From a virus, in the IMG/VR virus record IMGVR_UViG_3300046004_001028, positions 1-26,895 of that record: a stretch of DNA of 26,895 nucleotides. One strand, 5' to 3'. Numbering within the stretch: position 1 is the stretch's first letter; each line of letters opens with the position of its first letter. The notes beneath the pieces were generated by a model that saw only the letters and a program-made list of their open reading frames with translations, searched no databases and was not told the origin of the DNA. Position numbers and translations under genes: made by a program. Positions 3,496 through 26,895 of this stretch are shown piece after piece.

Positions 3496-3663
3496 ATGAA
3501 GGTCAGAATTATTAAGAAGCATTACAATTACGCCGTAGATAAGATAGTAGATACCAATGATGTTATCGCAGAGAAACTTATCAGACTTGGTGTAGCGGTA
3601 AACGCTGATGAACCAACAGAAGAAACATTAGAAGAAAAGCCTAAAACGACTAAGAAAAAGTAA
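3496..3663 (+). CDS. 55-residue head-region small protein
   Basis: Begins MKVRIIKKHYNYAVDKIVDTNDVIAEKLIRLGVA, the pattern of small phage proteins often encoded between capsid and connector genes: a short beta segment, then an '...A..LI..GVA' helix that reads as a Rho-N/KOW-like minidomain. The tail is acidic, then Lys-rich (KTTKKK). The stop TAA shares its last base with the next ATG (TAATG), so translation is probably coupled. Function is unknown; a role in head completion is inferred from position only. Confidence 0.65.
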   Translation: MKVRIIKKHYNYAVDKIVDTNDVIAEKLIRLGVAVNADEPTEETLEEKPKTTKKK

Positions 3664-4262
3664 TGGCATACGCAACACGATATGGCAACTTTGTAGGGCA
3701 AATGGCAATACCTAACTTGTCTACGGATAGACCTGATGGGCAGTTGATAAATACTCTCATAGAACGTATTGAACCTGATTGGCTCGATACGTTCTTTGGA
3801 GTACCAACTGCAATATTAGTTCAAGATGAAATAGACAACCAAACGGGCAATACTCCGTATGCGGAAATTGTCAATGGTGCTACATTTGTTGACTTGCAAG
3901 GCGACACTCAAATATGGGTAGGACTAATTAATACTAAGAATTTCAACCCGATAGCTAACTACATTTATTGTGAATACCTTAAAGACAAGGAAATACCGCT
4001 AACTAATATTAGTGGTGTAAAGCAAGCAAATGAAAATGGCGTTAGAGGCGATATGAGTATGAAAATGTCACGAGTTTGGGCGGACATGGTTAAGATGAAT
4101 TTCACGTTACACGATTACTTAGTTTCAATAAAAGGAACTTATCCAACGTTTGATAGTGAATACATTGGATTCAAGTACGACCCATACCGAATACCATATT
4201 ATCGTGCCGACTTGTACCCTAATCAACTATTGTTTCAGAACTTAAATCAATTTGGTATCTAA
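3663..4262 (+). CDS. Putative head-tail connector (adaptor) protein
   Basis: 199 aa. The region NPIANYIYCEYLKDKE (about 99-114), flanked by Trp/Phe-rich helices and followed by NENGVRGDMSMKMSRVWADMV, resembles the all-helical connector proteins that many Bacteroidota phages encode just after the capsid and small-protein genes. N-terminal helices (LINTLIERIEPDWLDTFFG) fit the same fold. It overlaps both neighbours by one base (TAATG on each side). Position and helical pattern support an adaptor that binds the portal ring. The family assignment is from memory of the pattern, not a search. Confidence 0.55.
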   Translation: MAYATRYGNFVGQMAIPNLSTDRPDGQLINTLIERIEPDWLDTFFGVPTAILVQDEIDNQTGNTPYAEIVNGATFVDLQGDTQIWVGLINTKNFNPIANYIYCEYLKDKEIPLTNISGVKQANENGVRGDMSMKMSRVWADMVKMNFTLHDYLVSIKGTYPTFDSEYIGFKYDPYRIPYYRADLYPNQLLFQNLNQFGI

Positions 4263-5191
4263 TGCCTAAAACTTATACATATTTACCACAAGATATACCT
4301 AGCATTATAGGCAATATCGTTGAGCAGTTGAGTGTAAACTTAGCTACTCAATTAGGGCATAGTGTCGATTTCTTACATGGCACTTGGCATTCTATTGAGG
4401 GTAGAATTATAGATAAGTCAACGGGTACGGTTACTAAGGATTCAACGTTCCCATTGATATGCTTGATACAAGTATTTGAGGAACGATTCAAGGCTGATAC
4501 GGAGTATAGCGATGTAACGTTAACGTTGTTGTTCTGTAACATAAGCGAACCATCATGGTATAGTGAGGATAGATATGCTAACAACTATCTACCAACGTTA
4601 TACCCGATGTATGCGGAGTTCATGCAACTACTAAACGAAAGTCCGTACTTTGTAGGTTACAACGTGCTATATCCCGAACATACTAAAGTAGACGATTTGC
4701 ACCTGCCCGAAGATAACACGAACAAGCTACCTGCTTGTCTTGATGGCTTATGGGTACGTGATTTGAAACTACGAGTAGATAACAAGTGTTTGCCCGTTGA
4801 GAATTGGGTAAGTACGGAGTTAGTGTTAGGTACGATTACGTATAACGACCCTACTATTGACATTCAGACTAGAATCGTATTCGATACGTTGGATGGATTC
4901 AAGAATGATAGCTTGTTTAGAGTATTCTATACGGCAGACAATGGGAGTGCGGTAAGTGCAGTTGTAGCGTCAGGGCAAGGCTATGAATACTTATCTAGGG
5001 TAGGTAATACGCTAACGTTTAAGGTAACAGATGTTACGCTATTGACTAAAACAATAGTGTATACGTCTACGATACCATACGTTGCAGGTCAACCACCCGA
5101 AGTACTAGTAACGGGTAAAGTAAGTTCTATGTCAAATCTAAGACCTTTGTGGGTAAATAAAAACAACATTCAAGATAGTATAACAACTTAA
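4262..5191 (+). CDS. Putative head-closure or tail-completion protein
   Basis: 309 aa. Residues 1-190 look like a compact alpha/beta domain of the size of a tail-terminator protein (helix QDIPSIIGNIVEQLSVNLA, strand FPLICLIQVFEE, strand VTLTLLFCNIS). About 110 further residues are beta-rich (YTADNGSAVSAVV...TLTFKVTDVT) and could be an appended surface domain. It follows the connector directly and precedes the tail-tube candidate, exactly where head-completion and tail-terminator genes sit in siphophages. The role is inferred from gene order; no catalytic motifs or membrane segments are visible. Confidence 0.5.
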   Translation: MPKTYTYLPQDIPSIIGNIVEQLSVNLATQLGHSVDFLHGTWHSIEGRIIDKSTGTVTKDSTFPLICLIQVFEERFKADTEYSDVTLTLLFCNISEPSWYSEDRYANNYLPTLYPMYAEFMQLLNESPYFVGYNVLYPEHTKVDDLHLPEDNTNKLPACLDGLWVRDLKLRVDNKCLPVENWVSTELVLGTITYNDPTIDIQTRIVFDTLDGFKNDSLFRVFYTADNGSAVSAVVASGQGYEYLSRVGNTLTFKVTDVTLLTKTIVYTSTIPYVAGQPPEVLVTGKVSSMSNLRPLWVNKNNIQDSITT

Positions 5192-5203
5192 AAATAATTT
5201 AAA

Positions 5204-6160
5204 ATGAGATTCATTAATTTACAATGTGCAGGTGACAATATGAACACAGGCATACAATCATGCTCATGGAATCCTAGCAACATTACGGGTGCTATCCATG
5301 TGCCACACGGCAAAGCATATTCAGCTACCGATGTATCGGTATTATGGACTACTTTGCAAGCAGACCTAATTGAAGATTCTAAGACTAAGAGAATCTATCC
5401 AGTTGGTCCGTTCAAGGCTATTACCGACAACTCAACCGATGTTCAAATCGAAACAGATGGTTATGGCGGTCAAACTTTCGTACGTGATGGCGATTACAAT
5501 TGGACTTTTGAGTATAAGAATGGTATGTGCTTCTACAAAGCATTACGTACATTCCACACCAAGAATAGTTCATTTGATGTATTCTTCATTGACGAAGTAA
5601 ACAACGTGCTATGGGGTACTGAAAACGCTGATGGTGATTTAGTTGGGTTTAGCTTAGAATTGCTAATCGTACCTAACATCAAGATTAACACGGGTGATGC
5701 TTCAACTAAGTACATGATTACTTATGGCTTACAAGACCCAACCGAGTTAAACGACAATAGCTATGCGGTATCGTTCCCTAACAACCAAAAACTTATGAAG
5801 TTGTCAGGGTTACTTGATACTACATTGGTTGCAACGTCTACTATCAATGCGACTACTGGTGATGTCGATGTAACGTTGAACTCATCATGTAACGCAACGG
5901 ATTTAGCCGAGTTATTCCCAACGGAATTAGCGGACATTTCACCTGCACCTGCGTTCACGGTTTACAACGTAACACAAGCTGCTGCGGTAGCTATTACGGG
6001 TATCGTAGTAAATGGTAGCACGATTACGATTACAACCGATGCAACAGACCACGCAGCTGCCGATATTTGTACGATTCAGTTCGGTCCTATATCAGCTATG
6101 CAAGCGGTAGGTATTTTGGGGTATGCACAGTCTAACTTAGTAAATGTAACAGTAGCATAA
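5204..6160 (+). CDS. Putative major tail (tube) protein with C-terminal beta domain
   Basis: 318 aa. Residues 1-195 are beta-rich and contain the run TFVRDGDYNWTFEYKNGMCF followed by FHTKNSSFDVFFIDEVNNVLWGT and SLELLIVPNIKINTGD, consistent with a tail-tube fold. Residues 205-318 are Thr/Val/Ala-rich (INATTGDVDVTLNSS, FTVYNVTQAAAVAITGIVVNGSTITIT) and read as an added Ig-like or carbohydrate-binding domain, a common decoration of tail-tube subunits. It starts after a 12-base A/T-rich gap and lies between the head-completion gene and the chaperone/tape-measure genes, the normal place for the tube gene. Confidence 0.6.
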   Translation: MRFINLQCAGDNMNTGIQSCSWNPSNITGAIHVPHGKAYSATDVSVLWTTLQADLIEDSKTKRIYPVGPFKAITDNSTDVQIETDGYGGQTFVRDGDYNWTFEYKNGMCFYKALRTFHTKNSSFDVFFIDEVNNVLWGTENADGDLVGFSLELLIVPNIKINTGDASTKYMITYGLQDPTELNDNSYAVSFPNNQKLMKLSGLLDTTLVATSTINATTGDVDVTLNSSCNATDLAELFPTELADISPAPAFTVYNVTQAAAVAITGIVVNGSTITITTDATDHAAADICTIQFGPISAMQAVGILGYAQSNLVNVTVA

Positions 6161-17659: not shown

Positions 17660-17667
17660 TATATTTG
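17660..17667 (+). promoter_or_regulatory. -7 box (TATATTTG) of a non-coding transcript
   Basis: Exact TAnnTTTG match 6 bases after the holin stop. Expected start is about 17671. No TTG lies at 19-20 bases, so strength is uncertain. The next ORF starts over 200 bases away, beyond two terminators, so the product is probably a small RNA. Confidence 0.5.
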
Positions 17668-17670
17668 CGA

Positions 17671-17770
17671 TAACAGTACCTTTGTTGCTTACCATTAGAA
17701 CAGCTCATTGGTCTTATAAGATGCCCTCTATGCCTCTTTTCAATGCACACTTAGGGGGTTTTCTCTTTTT
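17671..17770 (+). ncRNA. Candidate small RNA in the lysis region
   Basis: About 100 nt between a -7 box and a terminator. Visible helices: TAACA/TGTTG (17671-17675 with 17683-17687, loop GTACCTT); ACCA/TGGT (17691-17694 with 17709-17712); the terminator stem. CATTGG (17706-17711) can pair with TCAATG (17740-17745, one G-U) in the terminator loop, which would be an alternative or tertiary contact. The only ORF is 27 codons and looks non-coding. It may be a lysis-timing regulator, but no family is recognised. Confidence 0.45.
17724..17770 (+). terminator. Intrinsic terminator with large loop
   Basis: CCCTCTA (17724-17730) pairs with TAGGGGG (17752-17758) with one U-G. A 3-bp TGC/GCA hairpin lies inside, and a T-rich tract (TTTTCTCTTTTTT) follows. 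It would end transcription from the virion/lysis operon as well as the small RNA. Confidence 0.6.
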
Positions 17771-17786
17771 TATCCAAACTATTCAC

Positions 17787-17794
17787 TATCTTTG
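17787..17794 (+). promoter_or_regulatory. -7 box (TATCTTTG) of a very short transcription unit
   Basis: Exact TAnnTTTG match. The start would be near 17798. A strong terminator follows within 55 bases and the next promoter box lies after that, so the transcript would be only about 50 nt. Confidence 0.45.
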
Positions 17795-17823
17795 CGACTC
17801 ATAGTTTAGTTTTATTTAGTTAG

Positions 17824-17850
17824 ACCTATCAGCAATGGTAGGTTTTTTTA
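17824..17850 (+). terminator. Intrinsic terminator
   Basis: ACCTATC (17824-17830) pairs with GGTAGGT (17837-17843, one U-G), loop AGCAAT, followed by seven T. A standard strong terminator placed directly upstream of the promoter for 17878-18144. Confidence 0.7.
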
Positions 17851-17877: not shown

Positions 17878-18144
17878 ATGCACCTCGAAATAAAACAAGA
17901 ACTATTTGACGAACTCCCAATTGAGGGTAAGTTTAACTTCCAGTACGAGTTTGAACGTGCTTATAACCAAGTAGTAGGGCATAACCCTATAATCACTAAA
18001 GATGTAGCAAAAGAAGCTATTAAGGCTATTCTAATCGACAAGTTGAACGCTAATGCCAATGCAGAACATAAGACCTTATTTGGTAGAATATTTGCGGTAG
18101 TTAGTAAGGTTGGGGCGGTTTTGCTTAAATTTATTAAGATATGA
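17878..18144 (+). CDS. Small helical protein upstream of the endolysin
   Basis: 88 aa, mostly helical (KQELFDELPIEGKFNFQYEFERAYNQVV... DVAKEAIKAILIDKLNANANAEHK), with a hydrophobic C-terminus (IFAVVSKVGAVLLKFIKI) that could contact the membrane. First gene of the unit from the box at 17866; its stop overlaps the next ATG (ATGA). No family recognised. The hydrophobic basic tail would allow a lysis role, but this is inference. Confidence 0.6.
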   Translation: MHLEIKQELFDELPIEGKFNFQYEFERAYNQVVGHNPIITKDVAKEAIKAILIDKLNANANAEHKTLFGRIFAVVSKVGAVLLKFIKI

Positions 18145-21021: not shown

Positions 21022-21324
21022 ATGAACTACGAATTTAAAGGAACGAAAACAGAATGGGTATCATCAGAAAACAAAATAATAAAAGGTGATATAGTAGTAC
21101 AAGATAATGATATAATCATTTGTAGACTATCATGTGCAGATTACAATACAGATAATGAAGCATTAGCAAACGCCAAACTCATATCATGTTCATTAGAAAT
21201 GTTTGAGATGTTGAATAAGGTACTAATATACGTTGATTGGAGTTATGAAAATTGGACATCTGATGATGGTTTAATTATTAAACAACAAATCGAACAACTA
21301 CTCAAAAAAGCAACAACAATTTAA
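21022..21324 (+). CDS. Small conserved phage protein, unknown
   Basis: 100 aa. The block NTDNEALANAKLISCSLEMFEMLNKVL is a variant of the 'EAxANAxLIAxAPEMLEAL' motif of small phage proteins found beside recombination genes. The N-terminal half is a beta hairpin region. It starts 3 bases after the preceding stop. Its function is unknown. Confidence 0.6.
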   Translation: MNYEFKGTKTEWVSSENKIIKGDIVVQDNDIIICRLSCADYNTDNEALANAKLISCSLEMFEMLNKVLIYVDWSYENWTSDDGLIIKQQIEQLLKKATTI

Positions 21325-22715: not shown

Positions 22716-23084
22716 ATGCAAAAAGAAATCGAAACACACATCAACGAATTAAAAGCAAGTGACTACGAAGTAATATTGAAGATTTGTGAAATGTATCAAG
22801 TAAAAGAAGAAACGTTTTTTTCAAGCACTAGAAAGATAAACGTAGTCAATGCAAGACACATGGCAGCGTATTACTTCTACAACGTGCGAAGATACACGAA
22901 GTCAAAAATAGCTGAAATGGTATCAGTACCAAAGAAAGACCACACAACTATTATAAGTTCAATTAGAAAGTTTGGGAACTTCTTAGATACAGAACCATAC
23001 ACAGCCGACTTATACGCTACGTTATTAATGCCACGAATCGAATTTACATCACTTAAATACAAACCTAATGCAACTAGAATTTAA
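22716..23084 (+). CDS. Stand-alone DnaA domain IV-like DNA-binding protein
   Basis: 122 aa. Residues 19-88 match the DnaA C-terminal DNA-binding domain: helix EVILKICEMYQV, then RKINVVNARHMAAYYFYNV, the HTH TKSKIAEMVSVPKKDHTTIISSIRKF with the DnaA signature DHTT (75-78). The AAA+ part of DnaA is absent. It starts 3 bases after the exonuclease. It may bind DnaA-box-like sites at a phage origin, or compete with host DnaA. The C-terminal tail is basic. Confidence 0.75.
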   Translation: MQKEIETHINELKASDYEVILKICEMYQVKEETFFSSTRKINVVNARHMAAYYFYNVRRYTKSKIAEMVSVPKKDHTTIISSIRKFGNFLDTEPYTADLYATLLMPRIEFTSLKYKPNATRI

Positions 23085-23863: not shown

Positions 23864-24214
23864 ATGACACTAGAAATCAAAGGTCAAATCAAGGTTATCG
23901 GACAGCCTGAACAAAAATCCGAAAAGTTTACTAAGCAGGAAATCGTAGTCACTATTGATAGTGATACGAACTACCCACAGCACGTACCGATTCAACTTAA
24001 TCAGAAGTTGTTATCCGTTATTGGTCAATTTCAAGTAGGGCAACAAATCAAAGCTACGTGTAATATACGTGGTAATGAGTGGCAAACAAAGTATTTCCTA
24101 TCTATTGAGGCTTGGAAGTTGGAAAGTGAAGGTAATGCACCTGCGCAAGTACAACAAGCCGAATATAAAGTCGGTGCTAGTGTGGATGGTGGGGATAGTT
24201 CATTACCTTTCTAA
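23864..24214 (+). CDS. Single-stranded DNA-binding protein (DUF3127-like)
   Basis: 116 aa. An OB-fold-like strand series (EIKGQIKVIGQPEQKS... KQEIVVTIDSDTNYPQHVPIQLNQKLLSVIGQFQVGQQIKATCNIRGNEW) matches the Bacteroidota phage SSB type. A disordered acidic linker ends DGGDSSLPF, the SSB-type C-terminal tip (D-x-x-L-P-F) that recruits partner proteins. It would coat single strands made by the exonuclease and at forks. It sits behind the tRNA-like element and before a strong terminator. Confidence 0.82.
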   Translation: MTLEIKGQIKVIGQPEQKSEKFTKQEIVVTIDSDTNYPQHVPIQLNQKLLSVIGQFQVGQQIKATCNIRGNEWQTKYFLSIEAWKLESEGNAPAQVQQAEYKVGASVDGGDSSLPF

Positions 24215-24222
24215 ACCTTAAT

Positions 24223-24248
24223 GCGGTGGTGTAATGCCACCGCTTTTT
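24223..24248 (+). terminator. Intrinsic terminator after the SSB gene
   Basis: Perfect 7-bp stem GCGGTGG/CCACCGC, loop TGTAATG, then five T. It ends the early operon from 20678. Confidence 0.8.
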
Positions 24249-24255
24249 AATCCAC

Positions 24256-24423
24256 ATGAAACAATGTAAACAATGCCTTACACCTAAGCCTAAACACGAC
24301 TTCTACAAGGCTAAACGTATGCTCGATGGACTAGAACACCGATGTATTGAGTGCAAACGTAAGTATATGAGGCGAAGGTATTGGGATGAGAAAGAATTAG
24401 GTAAAATGATTAGGATATTATGA
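24256..24423 (+). CDS. 55-residue two-knuckle zinc finger protein
   Basis: MKQCKQCLTPKPKHDFYKAKR... EHRCIECKRKYMRRRYW: C4-x2-C7 and C30-x2-C33 form a compact zinc site with a basic helix after it, as in the N-terminal zinc module of endonuclease VII/HNH-like phage proteins. The nuclease part is absent. It starts 8 bases after the terminator, so expression requires readthrough or a weak promoter. Possibly a DNA-binding adaptor. Confidence 0.6.
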   Translation: MKQCKQCLTPKPKHDFYKAKRMLDGLEHRCIECKRKYMRRRYWDEKELGKMIRIL

Positions 24424-24433
24424 AAGTATGTAT

Positions 24434-24441
24434 TATATTTG
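24434..24441 (+). promoter_or_regulatory. -7 box (TATATTTG) of the structured RNA leader
   Basis: Exact TAnnTTTG match; start expected at about 24445. No TTG at the ideal spacing. It lies 11 bases after the zinc-finger stop and gives a 120-nt RNA ending in a strong terminator. Confidence 0.6.
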
Positions 24442-24444
24442 CAT

Positions 24445-24566
24445 TCAGTTCTTTAATTAACCGATGCTGTGAGAGGCGTCTAAACAATAACACTTTTTAA
24501 TACCCTTTGCAGGGTTGCCACCTACATACGTAGGCTCTCACTGGTAGTCCTGCAAAGGGATTTTTT
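24445..24566 (+). ncRNA. Structured leader or small RNA with kissing-loop, terminator-ended
   Basis: From the -7 box to the T-tract. Helices: P1 GATGC/GCGTC (24463-24467 with 24476-24480) with loop TGTGAGAG; an 11-bp perfect stem CCCTTTGCAGG/CCTGCAAAGGG (24503-24513, 24549-24559) extended by TTGCCA/TGGTAG; inside it CCTAC-ATAC-GTAGG (24521-24534). The unpaired CTCTCAC (24535-24541) is perfectly complementary to GTGAGAG in the P1 loop (24469-24475). It ends in six T, 5 bases before the ATG of the sigma4/alphaCTD gene. It is either a free small RNA or an attenuator; I do not recognise a known class. Confidence 0.6.
24503..24566 (+). terminator. 11-bp intrinsic terminator before the sigma4/alphaCTD gene
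   Basis: Perfect 11-bp stem with a structured internal region, followed by A and six T. Unless read through or opened, it would stop transcription 5 bases before the ATG at 24572. Confidence 0.75.
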
Positions 24567-24571
24567 ATTTT

Positions 24572-25360
24572 ATGAAAGAAGAAATATCAAAAAAACTAAA
24601 TGTAGACGAAAGGTCAGTAAAGCTAATTTTGTTGGATGAAGAATTATGTAAAAGGATTTTAAAAGAGAACCCTATAAGAATAAACGAATTTATTTTAAAA
24701 TATGGATTAAAATCAGGATTTGTACATAATCTAGCTAAAAGACGTATTATAAGTAGTTTTAGGAATAGCCATAAACAAGGCTCTCCACAATTTATATTTG
24801 AAGAAGAAGCGTTAAGATATGCCAAAGTAGATTATAATTCAAATAGTATGTACCATTCAATTGAAATAATAACTTTTTTATTTGTCCATGCTTGTAAAGA
24901 CATTTTATCTGAAAGAGAAAAAGAATGTATTTTAACTTATTTTAATAGACCTAGCTCAAACTTAGATGAATGGCATTTAACTAGAGAAAGAGTAAGGCAA
25001 ATTAGAATCGGGGCAGTTAAAAAACTTGCAAGATATTCAGATAGAATAAAAAAAGTAGATGAAATACTTACTTTAGAATGTAGATTAAAAGAATTGAATG
25101 ATTGCAAAAAAAGCGTTGAAAGAAAATCAAATAAAAATTTAATCAACAGCATTCAAGATAAGAATAAGAAAATAGATATAAGGGATTTAGATTTAAGTGT
25201 AAGAGCTTTCAATTGTTTAAAGGCTGCTAATATTAATACGGTTGGTGAAATAATTGAAGTTGGGTATGAAAAATTAAAAAGAATTAGGAATATGGGCAAT
25301 AGGTCATTAAAGGAAATATCAGAAACTTTAGAAGAATTAGGATTTACCCCTTTATATTAA
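24572..25360 (+). CDS. Sigma-70 region 4-like HTH fused to an RNAP alpha C-terminal domain
   Basis: 262 aa. Residues about 111-155 (LSEREKECILTYF... LTRERVRQIRIGAVKKLAR) match sigma-70 region 4, with an intact recognition helix TRERVRQI; the first HTH helix is shorter than usual. Residues about 200-260 (IDIRDLDLSVRAFNCLKAANINTVGEIIEVGYEKLKRIRNMGNRSLKEISETLEELGF) are an RNAP alpha-CTD; the DNA-contact residues equivalent to E. coli R265, N268, C269, G296 and S299 are R211, N214, C215, G242 and S245, and K298 is replaced by R244. Residues 1-100 are helical and unassigned. It probably acts on host RNAP at promoters. Its A-rich DNA and Lys/Ile content differ from neighbours, suggesting separate origin. 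Confidence 0.8.
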   Translation: MKEEISKKLNVDERSVKLILLDEELCKRILKENPIRINEFILKYGLKSGFVHNLAKRRIISSFRNSHKQGSPQFIFEEEALRYAKVDYNSNSMYHSIEIITFLFVHACKDILSEREKECILTYFNRPSSNLDEWHLTRERVRQIRIGAVKKLARYSDRIKKVDEILTLECRLKELNDCKKSVERKSNKNLINSIQDKNKKIDIRDLDLSVRAFNCLKAANINTVGEIIEVGYEKLKRIRNMGNRSLKEISETLEELGFTPLY

Positions 25361-25369
25361 GAATTTAAT

Positions 25370-25377
25370 TAACTTTG
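25370..25377 (+). promoter_or_regulatory. -7 box (TAACTTTG) of the second structured RNA
   Basis: Exact TAnnTTTG match, 10 bases after the sigma4/alphaCTD stop. The predicted start (about 25381) coincides with the first bases of the terminator stem, so the RNA's 5' end is locked in the helix. Confidence 0.55.
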
Positions 25378-25378
25378 C

Positions 25379-25438
25379 AACAATAAAGGTTGTGTAGGCA
25401 TACACGTAAAAGTTAGCGTTCTTCCCTTTGTTGTTTTT
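25379..25438 (+). terminator. Intrinsic terminator before the primase/helicase gene
   Basis: The 11-bp outer stem of the RNA above and its five-T tract. The stem is A/U-rich on one side, so it is weaker than the one at 24503-24566. Confidence 0.55.
25380..25438 (+). ncRNA. Second terminator-ended structured RNA/leader
   Basis: About 59 nt. An 11-bp stem AACAATAAAGG/CCTTTGTTGTT (25379-25389, 25425-25435, one U-G) joins the start to the end, with a GTGTA-GGCA-TACAC hairpin inside (25392-25405) and five T at 25434-25438. TTAGCGTT in the loop (25413-25420) is perfectly complementary to AACGCTAA at 25443-25450, downstream of the T-tract; only a read-through RNA could form that pseudoknot or alternative hairpin. 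It ends 27 bases before the primase gene. Confidence 0.55.
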
Positions 25439-25465
25439 AATCAACGCTAAATAAAAACACATTAT

Positions 25466-26895
25466 ATGATTACACTCGAAAGATGTTACCGACTGCTTGA
25501 TAGCGGATTATCATTAGCAACGCTAAACGATAAGAAACAAGCTAACTTCTCATGGAAGATAAATCAAACTACGCCACTTACAAAAGATGAGTTTAAGAAG
25601 CGTTATGAATACGTTGGTGGTATTACATTGAAGGATGGTACTGAAATGGCTGCCACATCAAACATAGCTTTGATAACTGGCTACAACAACATTGAAGTCA
25701 TAGACGTAGATTTAAAAGTATTCCCAACATTACCCGAACAAAATAAGTTTTGGGATGAACTACATGATTATCTTAAATCGAACATAGATGACTTTCATTT
25801 GAAGTTTGTTATCTACAAAACTAAGAATCAAGGCTACCACATTCTATACCGATGCAAGGTTATAGGTGGTAATTTAAAGATAGCCAAACTTAAAGGACAC
25901 AAAGAATGTGTTATAGAAAGCAGAGGCAATGGCGGTTATGTTGTAGTCTATGAGAACAAGATTAGCAAACTTGACTACTTAGAAATTCAAGAGATTACCG
26001 AACGTGATAGGCAAATCTTATGGGATATTTGTAAAACCTTCAACTATGTTGATGAAGAAACGATAATCGAACCCGAAAAGAAACAAGTTACGGAGTACAT
26101 TCAGTCGGACATAACCCCGTGGACTGACTACAACAACAAAACTAATATCTTTGACATCATAGGCGAAGATTTCAAGATAGTTAAGAAACTAGCTACACAT
26201 TACATTATCCTTAGACATGGCGCAACAAGCGTTCAAAGTGGGTATGTTTACATGAACTCAAATTGTATGTACTTATTCTCAACTGGTACGATTTACCCAA
26301 ATGAGAAGCTAGTAAGTCCATATATGGCATATACTATTAAGTATCACAAAGGAGATTTTAAAGCATCAGCTAAGGATTTATACGATAAGGGTTTTGGGTC
26401 GAGAATAGTTAAGAAGAAACCAACCGAAATAAAAGAAACTATCAAGATTAACCATGACCAACTATTGTTTCCTATTGACGTATTCCCAAAAGAAATACAA
26501 GAGTATATCATTGAATGTAACCAAACCTTAGATAGTTCAATAGATTACATGGGTTGTTCTATGTTATGGTTAATATCAGTTATCGTTGGTAATTCTATGC
26601 AAATCGAGGTTAAGAAAGGGTGGTACGAAATGGCTACGATATGGGTAGCGGTTGTAGGTCGTGCGGGATTAGGCAAAACACCTTCGATTAACAATATCAT
26701 ATACCCACTACAAAAGGTTAATTCAAAGAAGATTAAGGACTATATTAGGCAGTATGAGAAGTATGAGGCATATAGCGCATTGAAAGATGAAGAAAAGAAA
26801 CAACATGAACACATTAAGAAGCCTATAAAGCAACAATTCATAGCTAACGATATTACACTAGAGGCATTAATCGACCTTCATCAAGAATCTAACTC
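25466..26895 (+). CDS. Primase-polymerase / helicase protein (3'-partial)
   Basis: 476 codons with no stop at the window edge. Residues about 20-190 are a primase-polymerase-like domain: NNIEVIDVDLK with the metal-binding D80-x-D82, QGYHILYRC as motif II, and CVIESRGNGGYVVVYEN as motif III. Residues about 360-476 begin a P-loop helicase of the DUF3987 type, with VAVVGRAGLGKTPS giving the Walker A lysine K404 and T405. It would prime and unwind phage DNA. Its expression appears gated by the RNA leader at 25380-25438. The start ATG follows an A-rich stretch. Completeness cannot be judged. Confidence 0.8.
   Translation, partial: MITLERCYRLLDSGLSLATLNDKKQANFSWKINQTTPLTKDEFKKRYEYVGGITLKDGTEMAATSNIALITGYNNIEVIDVDLKVFPTLPEQNKFWDELHDYLKSNIDDFHLKFVIYKTKNQGYHILYRCKVIGGNLKIAKLKGHKECVIESRGNGGYVVVYENKISKLDYLEIQEITERDRQILWDICKTFNYVDEETIIEPEKKQVTEYIQSDITPWTDYNNKTNIFDIIGEDFKIVKKLATHYIILRHGATSVQSGYVYMNSNCMYLFSTGTIYPNEKLVSPYMAYTIKYHKGDFKASAKDLYDKGFGSRIVKKKPTEIKETIKINHDQLLFPIDVFPKEIQEYIIECNQTLDSSIDYMGCSMLWLISVIVGNSMQIEVKKGWYEMATIWVAVVGRAGLGKTPSINNIIYPLQKVNSKKIKDYIRQYEKYEAYSALKDEEKKQHEHIKKPIKQQFIANDITLEALIDLHQESN

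Follow-up and report, generated by a model that had tools for sequence, protein, structure and literature searches.

A phage accessory gene behind a structured leader encodes a sigma region 4-like helix-turn-helix joined to an RNA polymerase α-CTD

The window, by which we mean the whole stretch of DNA analyzed, is a single viral record of 26,895 bases that includes head, lysis and replication genes (PHROGs), nearly all of its genes lying on the + strand. The gene considered here encodes a 262-aa protein and occupies a slot bounded by the terminator of an ssb-like gene on the upstream side and by the leader of a primase/helicase gene on the downstream side (Table 1). The Bacteroidota-type promoter consensus TAnnTTTG occurs 69 times in the window, compared with 35.7 expected from shuffles, an excess that fits a phage of Bacteroidota-type bacteria. 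Other short intergenic units, in which such a motif has a terminator-like hairpin or T-run close behind it, are located at 17660-17770 and 17787-17845 and precede the gene at 17878. TTTAATTAAC is the sole short motif seen to be shared; it was picked after inspection and is present in three copies (at 21320, 24452 and 25364; 0.33 expected), all on the + strand and just upstream of genes or within their leaders. Elsewhere in the window, two ORFs (5-904 and 1805-2983), separated by an ORF resembling a head maturation protease, both matched the major head protein family phrog_10, and a 122-aa protein (22716-23084) contains the DnaA C-terminal DNA-binding domain as its sole recognized domain (Bac_DnaA_C, 9e-12).

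Table 1. Features in and around the slot, in window coordinates.
Feature	Position	Strand	Basis or remark
ssb-like gene (DUF3127)	23864-24214		upstream neighbor of slot
Terminator 3′ of ssb-like gene	24223-24243	+	upstream edge of slot
Small zinc-finger-like ORF	24256-24423		between ssb-like gene and α-CTD ORF
Bacteroidota-type −7 promoter motif TATATTTG	24434-24441	+	TAnnTTTG consensus match only
5′ leader hairpin GAUGC-UGUGAGAG-GCGUC, loop GUGAGAG at 24469-24475	24463-24480	+	fold
Terminator-like hairpin, 7-nt bulge CUCUCAC at 24535-24541	24503-24559	+	z −7.0
U-run TTTTTTATTTT between hairpin and ATG	24561-24571	+	sequence; identical in L050/L051
262-aa α-CTD protein	24572-25360	+	ORF, Pfam, NCBIfam and PDB matches
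Residues 1-110 (HTH_17 or Cro/C1 HTH in several relatives)	24572-24901	+	pLDDT low
Sigma70 region 4-like HTH, residues 111-152	24902-25027	+	Pfam E = 0.0029, spacing, model
Long helical linker, residues 156-198	25037-25165	+	predicted structure
α-CTD, residues 196-258	25157-25345	+	Pfam 1.7e-21; fold Z 11.9
Promoter motif TAACTTTG and pseudoknotted primase leader	25370-25465	+	downstream edge of slot
Primase/helicase gene (Prim-Pol + DUF3987)	25466-26893	+	Pfam, PHROGs; truncated at window end

The C-terminus of the 262-aa protein is a complete α-CTD. Pfam RNA_pol_A_CTD (PF03118) matched residues 196-255 with E = 1.7e-21 and a score of 76.2 bits, compared with a curated cut-off of 23.8, the NCBIfam RpoA models matched with E down to 3e-20, and RpoA chains in the PDB matched with E = 3.9e-13. 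The RpoA models covered the C-terminal third only (positions 207 and up); the N-terminal dimerization domain of α is absent, and an HTH and a linker stand in its place. The first structure model, built from four sequences, was poor outside the α-CTD. A trimmed model was better, with pLDDT >90 across most of the α-CTD, which superposed on the B. subtilis α-CTD with a Z score of 11.9 and an rmsd of 1.5 Å over 67 residues, in line with the helix-hairpin-helix fold that the original prediction had placed in residues 200-260. Residues 203-258 could be aligned without gaps to residues 257-312 of E. coli RpoA (PDB 10ma_G). In this alignment, the five contact residues that had been proposed from the sequence, R211, N214, C215, G242 and S245, are all kept, corresponding to R265, N268, C269, G296 and S299 of RpoA, and R244 takes the position of K298. 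We take these six RpoA residues to be its DNA contacts (the 265 determinant). D205 and D207 fall at the positions of D259 and E261, presumably the acidic residues through which RpoA contacts sigma (the 261 determinant), so that the fold, the DNA-contact residues and the sigma-contact acids are common to the two proteins; acidic residues are absent from these two positions in some relatives. As also proposed, the gene is A-rich compared with its neighbors, with a GC content of 26.4% (GC3 16.7%) against 34-42% for most ORFs, and two further small ORFs are nearly as low.

The HTH upstream of the linker is less well preserved. Sigma70_r4 (PF04545) matched with E = 0.0029 and 17.5 bits, which is under the curated cut-off of 24.1. 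As in sigma70 region 4, there is an intact recognition helix (TRERVRQI), and a region 4.1-like helix is present in the trimmed model. However, the first helix of the HTH is shortened: compared with five relatives, the stretch before TRERVRQI lacks 2-3 residues, and it was modeled as coil. The structure matches listed for the trimmed model include no separate one to sigma region 4, but the α-CTD fills that list. R138, E139 and R142 of TRERVRQI correspond to the sigma70 residues that we take to be numbered R584, E585 and R588. These sigma70 residues are thought to contact bases of the −35 element (PMC2613000). Overall, the HTH is the weakest of its group, and in this copy it looks degenerate. 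The original prediction, a sigma region 4-like HTH and a complete α-CTD in one 262-aa chain with profile matches to both, thus held for the ORF, the α-CTD and the TRERVRQI helix, but the sigma part fell below cut-off and its partner helix is short.

The fit of TRERVRQI to the region 4.2 pattern, together with the modeled region 4.1-like helix, could be read as a genuine sigma factor, alternative or appropriated, whose region 4 docks on the RNAP β-flap. However, no Pfam match to sigma region 2 or 3 was found in the protein at E up to 10, so the part that reads the −10 element is missing, and the HTH itself is shortened. Because there is no region 2, the protein is not a sigma factor, and we regard this reading as very improbable.

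Proteins of similar design are found in other mobile elements. Those of human gut phage MT835636 (L002, ORF 3653-4651) and gut phage MT837876 (L011, ORF 948-1859) matched HTH_17, Sigma70_r4 and RNA_pol_A_CTD, all above cut-off, and have the sigma4-like HTH, linker and α-CTD in the same order as the window protein, but differ from it in their recognizable HTH_17 and C-terminal extensions, with about 20-28% identity. WP_124785686.1 is carried not by a phage but by a mobilizable plasmid of Chryseobacterium taklimakanense (NZ_CP034172); it is 28% identical to the window protein across 94% of the query, and its sigma4 HTH is full length (Sigma70_r4 3.8e-7, α-CTD 2.6e-15), while its annotation names the α-CTD only (“DNA-directed RNA polymerase subunit alpha C-terminal domain-containing protein”). 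The same layout occurs in three proteins (two gut phages, one plasmid); both Pfam cut-offs are passed by these three and also by two groups of viral proteins that diverge further. In L016 and L018, viral proteins of greater divergence, a Cro/C1 HTH, Sigma70_r4 and the α-CTD were very clear, and the viral proteins L019-L024 have Sigma70_r4 and the α-CTD without an N-terminal HTH (Pfam scan on L019 and L023). Alignments showed the order of sigma4-like HTH then α-CTD in one chain to be common to the window protein and several distinct groups. Since the relatives carry both domains, the pairing is not due to chance, and, judged by sequence comparison, the pair is a recurrent mobile-element module. 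Identity to Bacteroides RpoA is 57% for the L002 α-CTD, whereas the α-CTD of the window protein shows 41-48% identity to all RpoAs compared, and a weakly supported tree of 16 short sequences hints at repeated independent capture of the domain.

Pattern searches of IMG/VR and GTDB returned no relatives of the window protein. Among the candidates, H2, H3 and H6 were rejected as cellular rpoA genes inside “phage” records, and H49, H69 and H70 as ordinary rpoA genes followed by rplQ. Bacillus phage Goe8 c00050 and Microbacterium phage Mazun gp26 also bear a C-terminal α-CTD on a phage protein, but their N-terminal part looks unrelated, and no sigma4-like motif was seen in it. We found no description of a sigma4/α-CTD fusion in the open-access literature.

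Residues 1-110 of the window protein gave no Pfam match, including to HTH_17 and HTH_3, and a profile comparison of the N-terminal parts of the window and plasmid proteins with the HTH_17 part of L002 and L011 was not significant, the alignments being tiny. The N-terminal HTH found with Pfam in four relatives (L002, L011, L016 and L018), which the original prediction had missed, argues for site-specific DNA binding.

The 262-aa ORF is preceded by a structured leader (Table 1), whose promoter motif is found at the same place in two sister phages, L050 and L051. The 78-nt 3′ part of the leader folds with −34 kcal/mol (z −7.0), and its bulge is fully complementary to the loop of the 5′ hairpin. 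An equally good match to the bulge was present in 0.04% of shuffled 5′ parts, or in 5% when any interior segment was allowed to match. The L050/L051 leader is built alike but differs in its letters: the loop UUAAGGG faces CCCUUAA, for which the looser test gives 9%. This difference is suggestive of kissing-loop covariation between two independent sequences. Such an arrangement would be expected to yield a short terminated transcript, with limited read-through reaching the ORF. In the earlier proposal that transcription of the gene is gated by a structured RNA, the anatomy is borne out by the promoter motif, the hairpin, the U-run and the loop complementarity changing in step in the sister phages, while the gating itself is predicted.

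This anatomy of promoter, structured RNA and terminator just before an AT-rich ORF resembles that of an RNA-antitoxin/toxin-like pair, and the sister phages do have a different ORF behind the same leader plan. However, neither the tandem RNA repeats nor the ToxN-like protein of type III toxin-antitoxin systems were found in the leader or the ORF, neither slot ORF matches a toxin family, and the α-CTD protein looks regulator-like, which makes such a pair an extremely remote prospect.

The primase gene has a leader of its own, with a promoter motif, a terminator-like stem, a GGCA-loop hairpin, the sequence CGUAAAA and a strand that pairs downstream of the U-run. We compared the window leader with those of L050 (about 5886-6000) and of L052/L053 (before the primase gene). 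The hairpin and pseudoknot are kept in all three distinct leaders with the letters changed (UUAGCGUU:AACGCUAA, GCGUUU:AAACGC and GCACGU:ACGUGC). A pattern scan for this leader gave four true records; L058 and L059 were rejected as chance matches inside genes. Rfam contained no family for either this leader or that of the 262-aa ORF.

The primases of L050 and L051 are 80% and 77% identical to that of the window, and no α-CTD domain was found in these records (37 kb and 5.9 kb, possibly incomplete). Between ssb and primase they instead have an unrelated 160-aa ORF. In L050, this alternative cargo ORF (5403-5885) has a GC3 of 17.4%, close to that of the window ORF, and matched nothing in Pfam or PADLOC; a possible nuclease-like motif (PDI...IEI) was seen in it by eye. 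The more distant G019 (primase 59%) also lacks the α-CTD gene in a possibly incomplete record. Because sister phages without the gene carry an unrelated ORF in the slot, the gene is optional; this speaks against its being essential to the transcription program of this lineage. The 262-aa ORF is accessory cargo of low GC content, carried behind a structured leader, rather than a core transcription switch. This accessory nature, too, had escaped the original prediction, whose suggestion that the protein redirects host RNAP to phage promoters gains from the fusion being real and recurrent but is weakened by the sister phages whose records lack it and by the degenerate look of the HTH.

An optional low-GC slot that holds an unrelated ORF in sister phages might also house a host-takeover or anti-defense factor, competing with the host α-CTD for UP elements or activators, or acting as a decoy that draws off α-CTD-targeting proteins. 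Phage factors directed at R265 of α exist, as in T4 Alt (PMC2988021). However, the N-terminal HTH of the relatives points to site specificity more than to a decoy, and a plasmid carries a member too; we consider a takeover role decidedly unlikely.

On host promoters, sigma region 4 and the α-CTD bind the adjacent −35 and UP sites (PMC2613000), and entry 3n97 contains both on one DNA. As the DNA face and the sigma face are both preserved in the α-CTD of the window protein, action upstream of promoters is the natural inference. We favor, with a probability of roughly 0.5, a mobile-element transcription regulator that acts on promoter-upstream DNA via α-CTD, and perhaps sigma4, contacts. The minor-groove grip of the α-CTD would place the protein on AT-rich DNA just upstream of promoters, with specificity coming from the N-terminal part, the sigma4-like part, or both. 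Promoter use might then be altered through a contact with host sigma region 4 of the kind made by the host α-CTD, or through occupation of that site, and the protein could act as activator, repressor or decoy. Its own expression would proceed through, or past, the structured leader ending in a terminator. DNA binding, RNAP or sigma contact, promoter regulation and attenuation are all functions that we infer for this protein. T4 MotA/AsiA offer a functional analogy as phage proteins whose action involves sigma region 4 as well as upstream DNA (PMC2988021), but they are two proteins with no copy of the α-CTD and no demonstrated sequence relation to the window protein.

α-CTD-like domains are not confined to promoter regulators; PglW, for example, also has one. 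The window protein might be a plain site-specific repressor or a replication/partition-type DNA binder that uses the α-CTD as a helix-hairpin-helix grip and makes no contact with RNAP or sigma. The gene does adjoin a primase gene, the fusion gene of L024 is flanked by genes for primase and helicase, and the sigma4-like HTH is degenerate. However, the RpoA match (3e-20) is far better than that to PglW (5.6e-6), and the acidic D205 and D207, though not acidic in all relatives, are kept where a mere grip would not need them. A plain DNA binder is thus possible, but we hold it to be doubtful. In a bolder and rather unlikely form, the promoter-upstream regulator may represent an undescribed recurrent class in which the sigma region 4 and α-CTD surface is rebuilt in one chain and supplied in trans, steering RNAP to or from chosen promoters, and which here would be swappable cargo behind a kissing-loop leader.

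The α-CTD and sigma region 4 touch on host promoters, yet belong to different subunits. That they occur joined in one small protein, both in a plasmid and in several separate groups of phages, suggests the combination has been repeatedly useful to mobile elements, and it may provide a compact system for asking what the α-CTD/sigma4 pair does without the rest of RNA polymerase.
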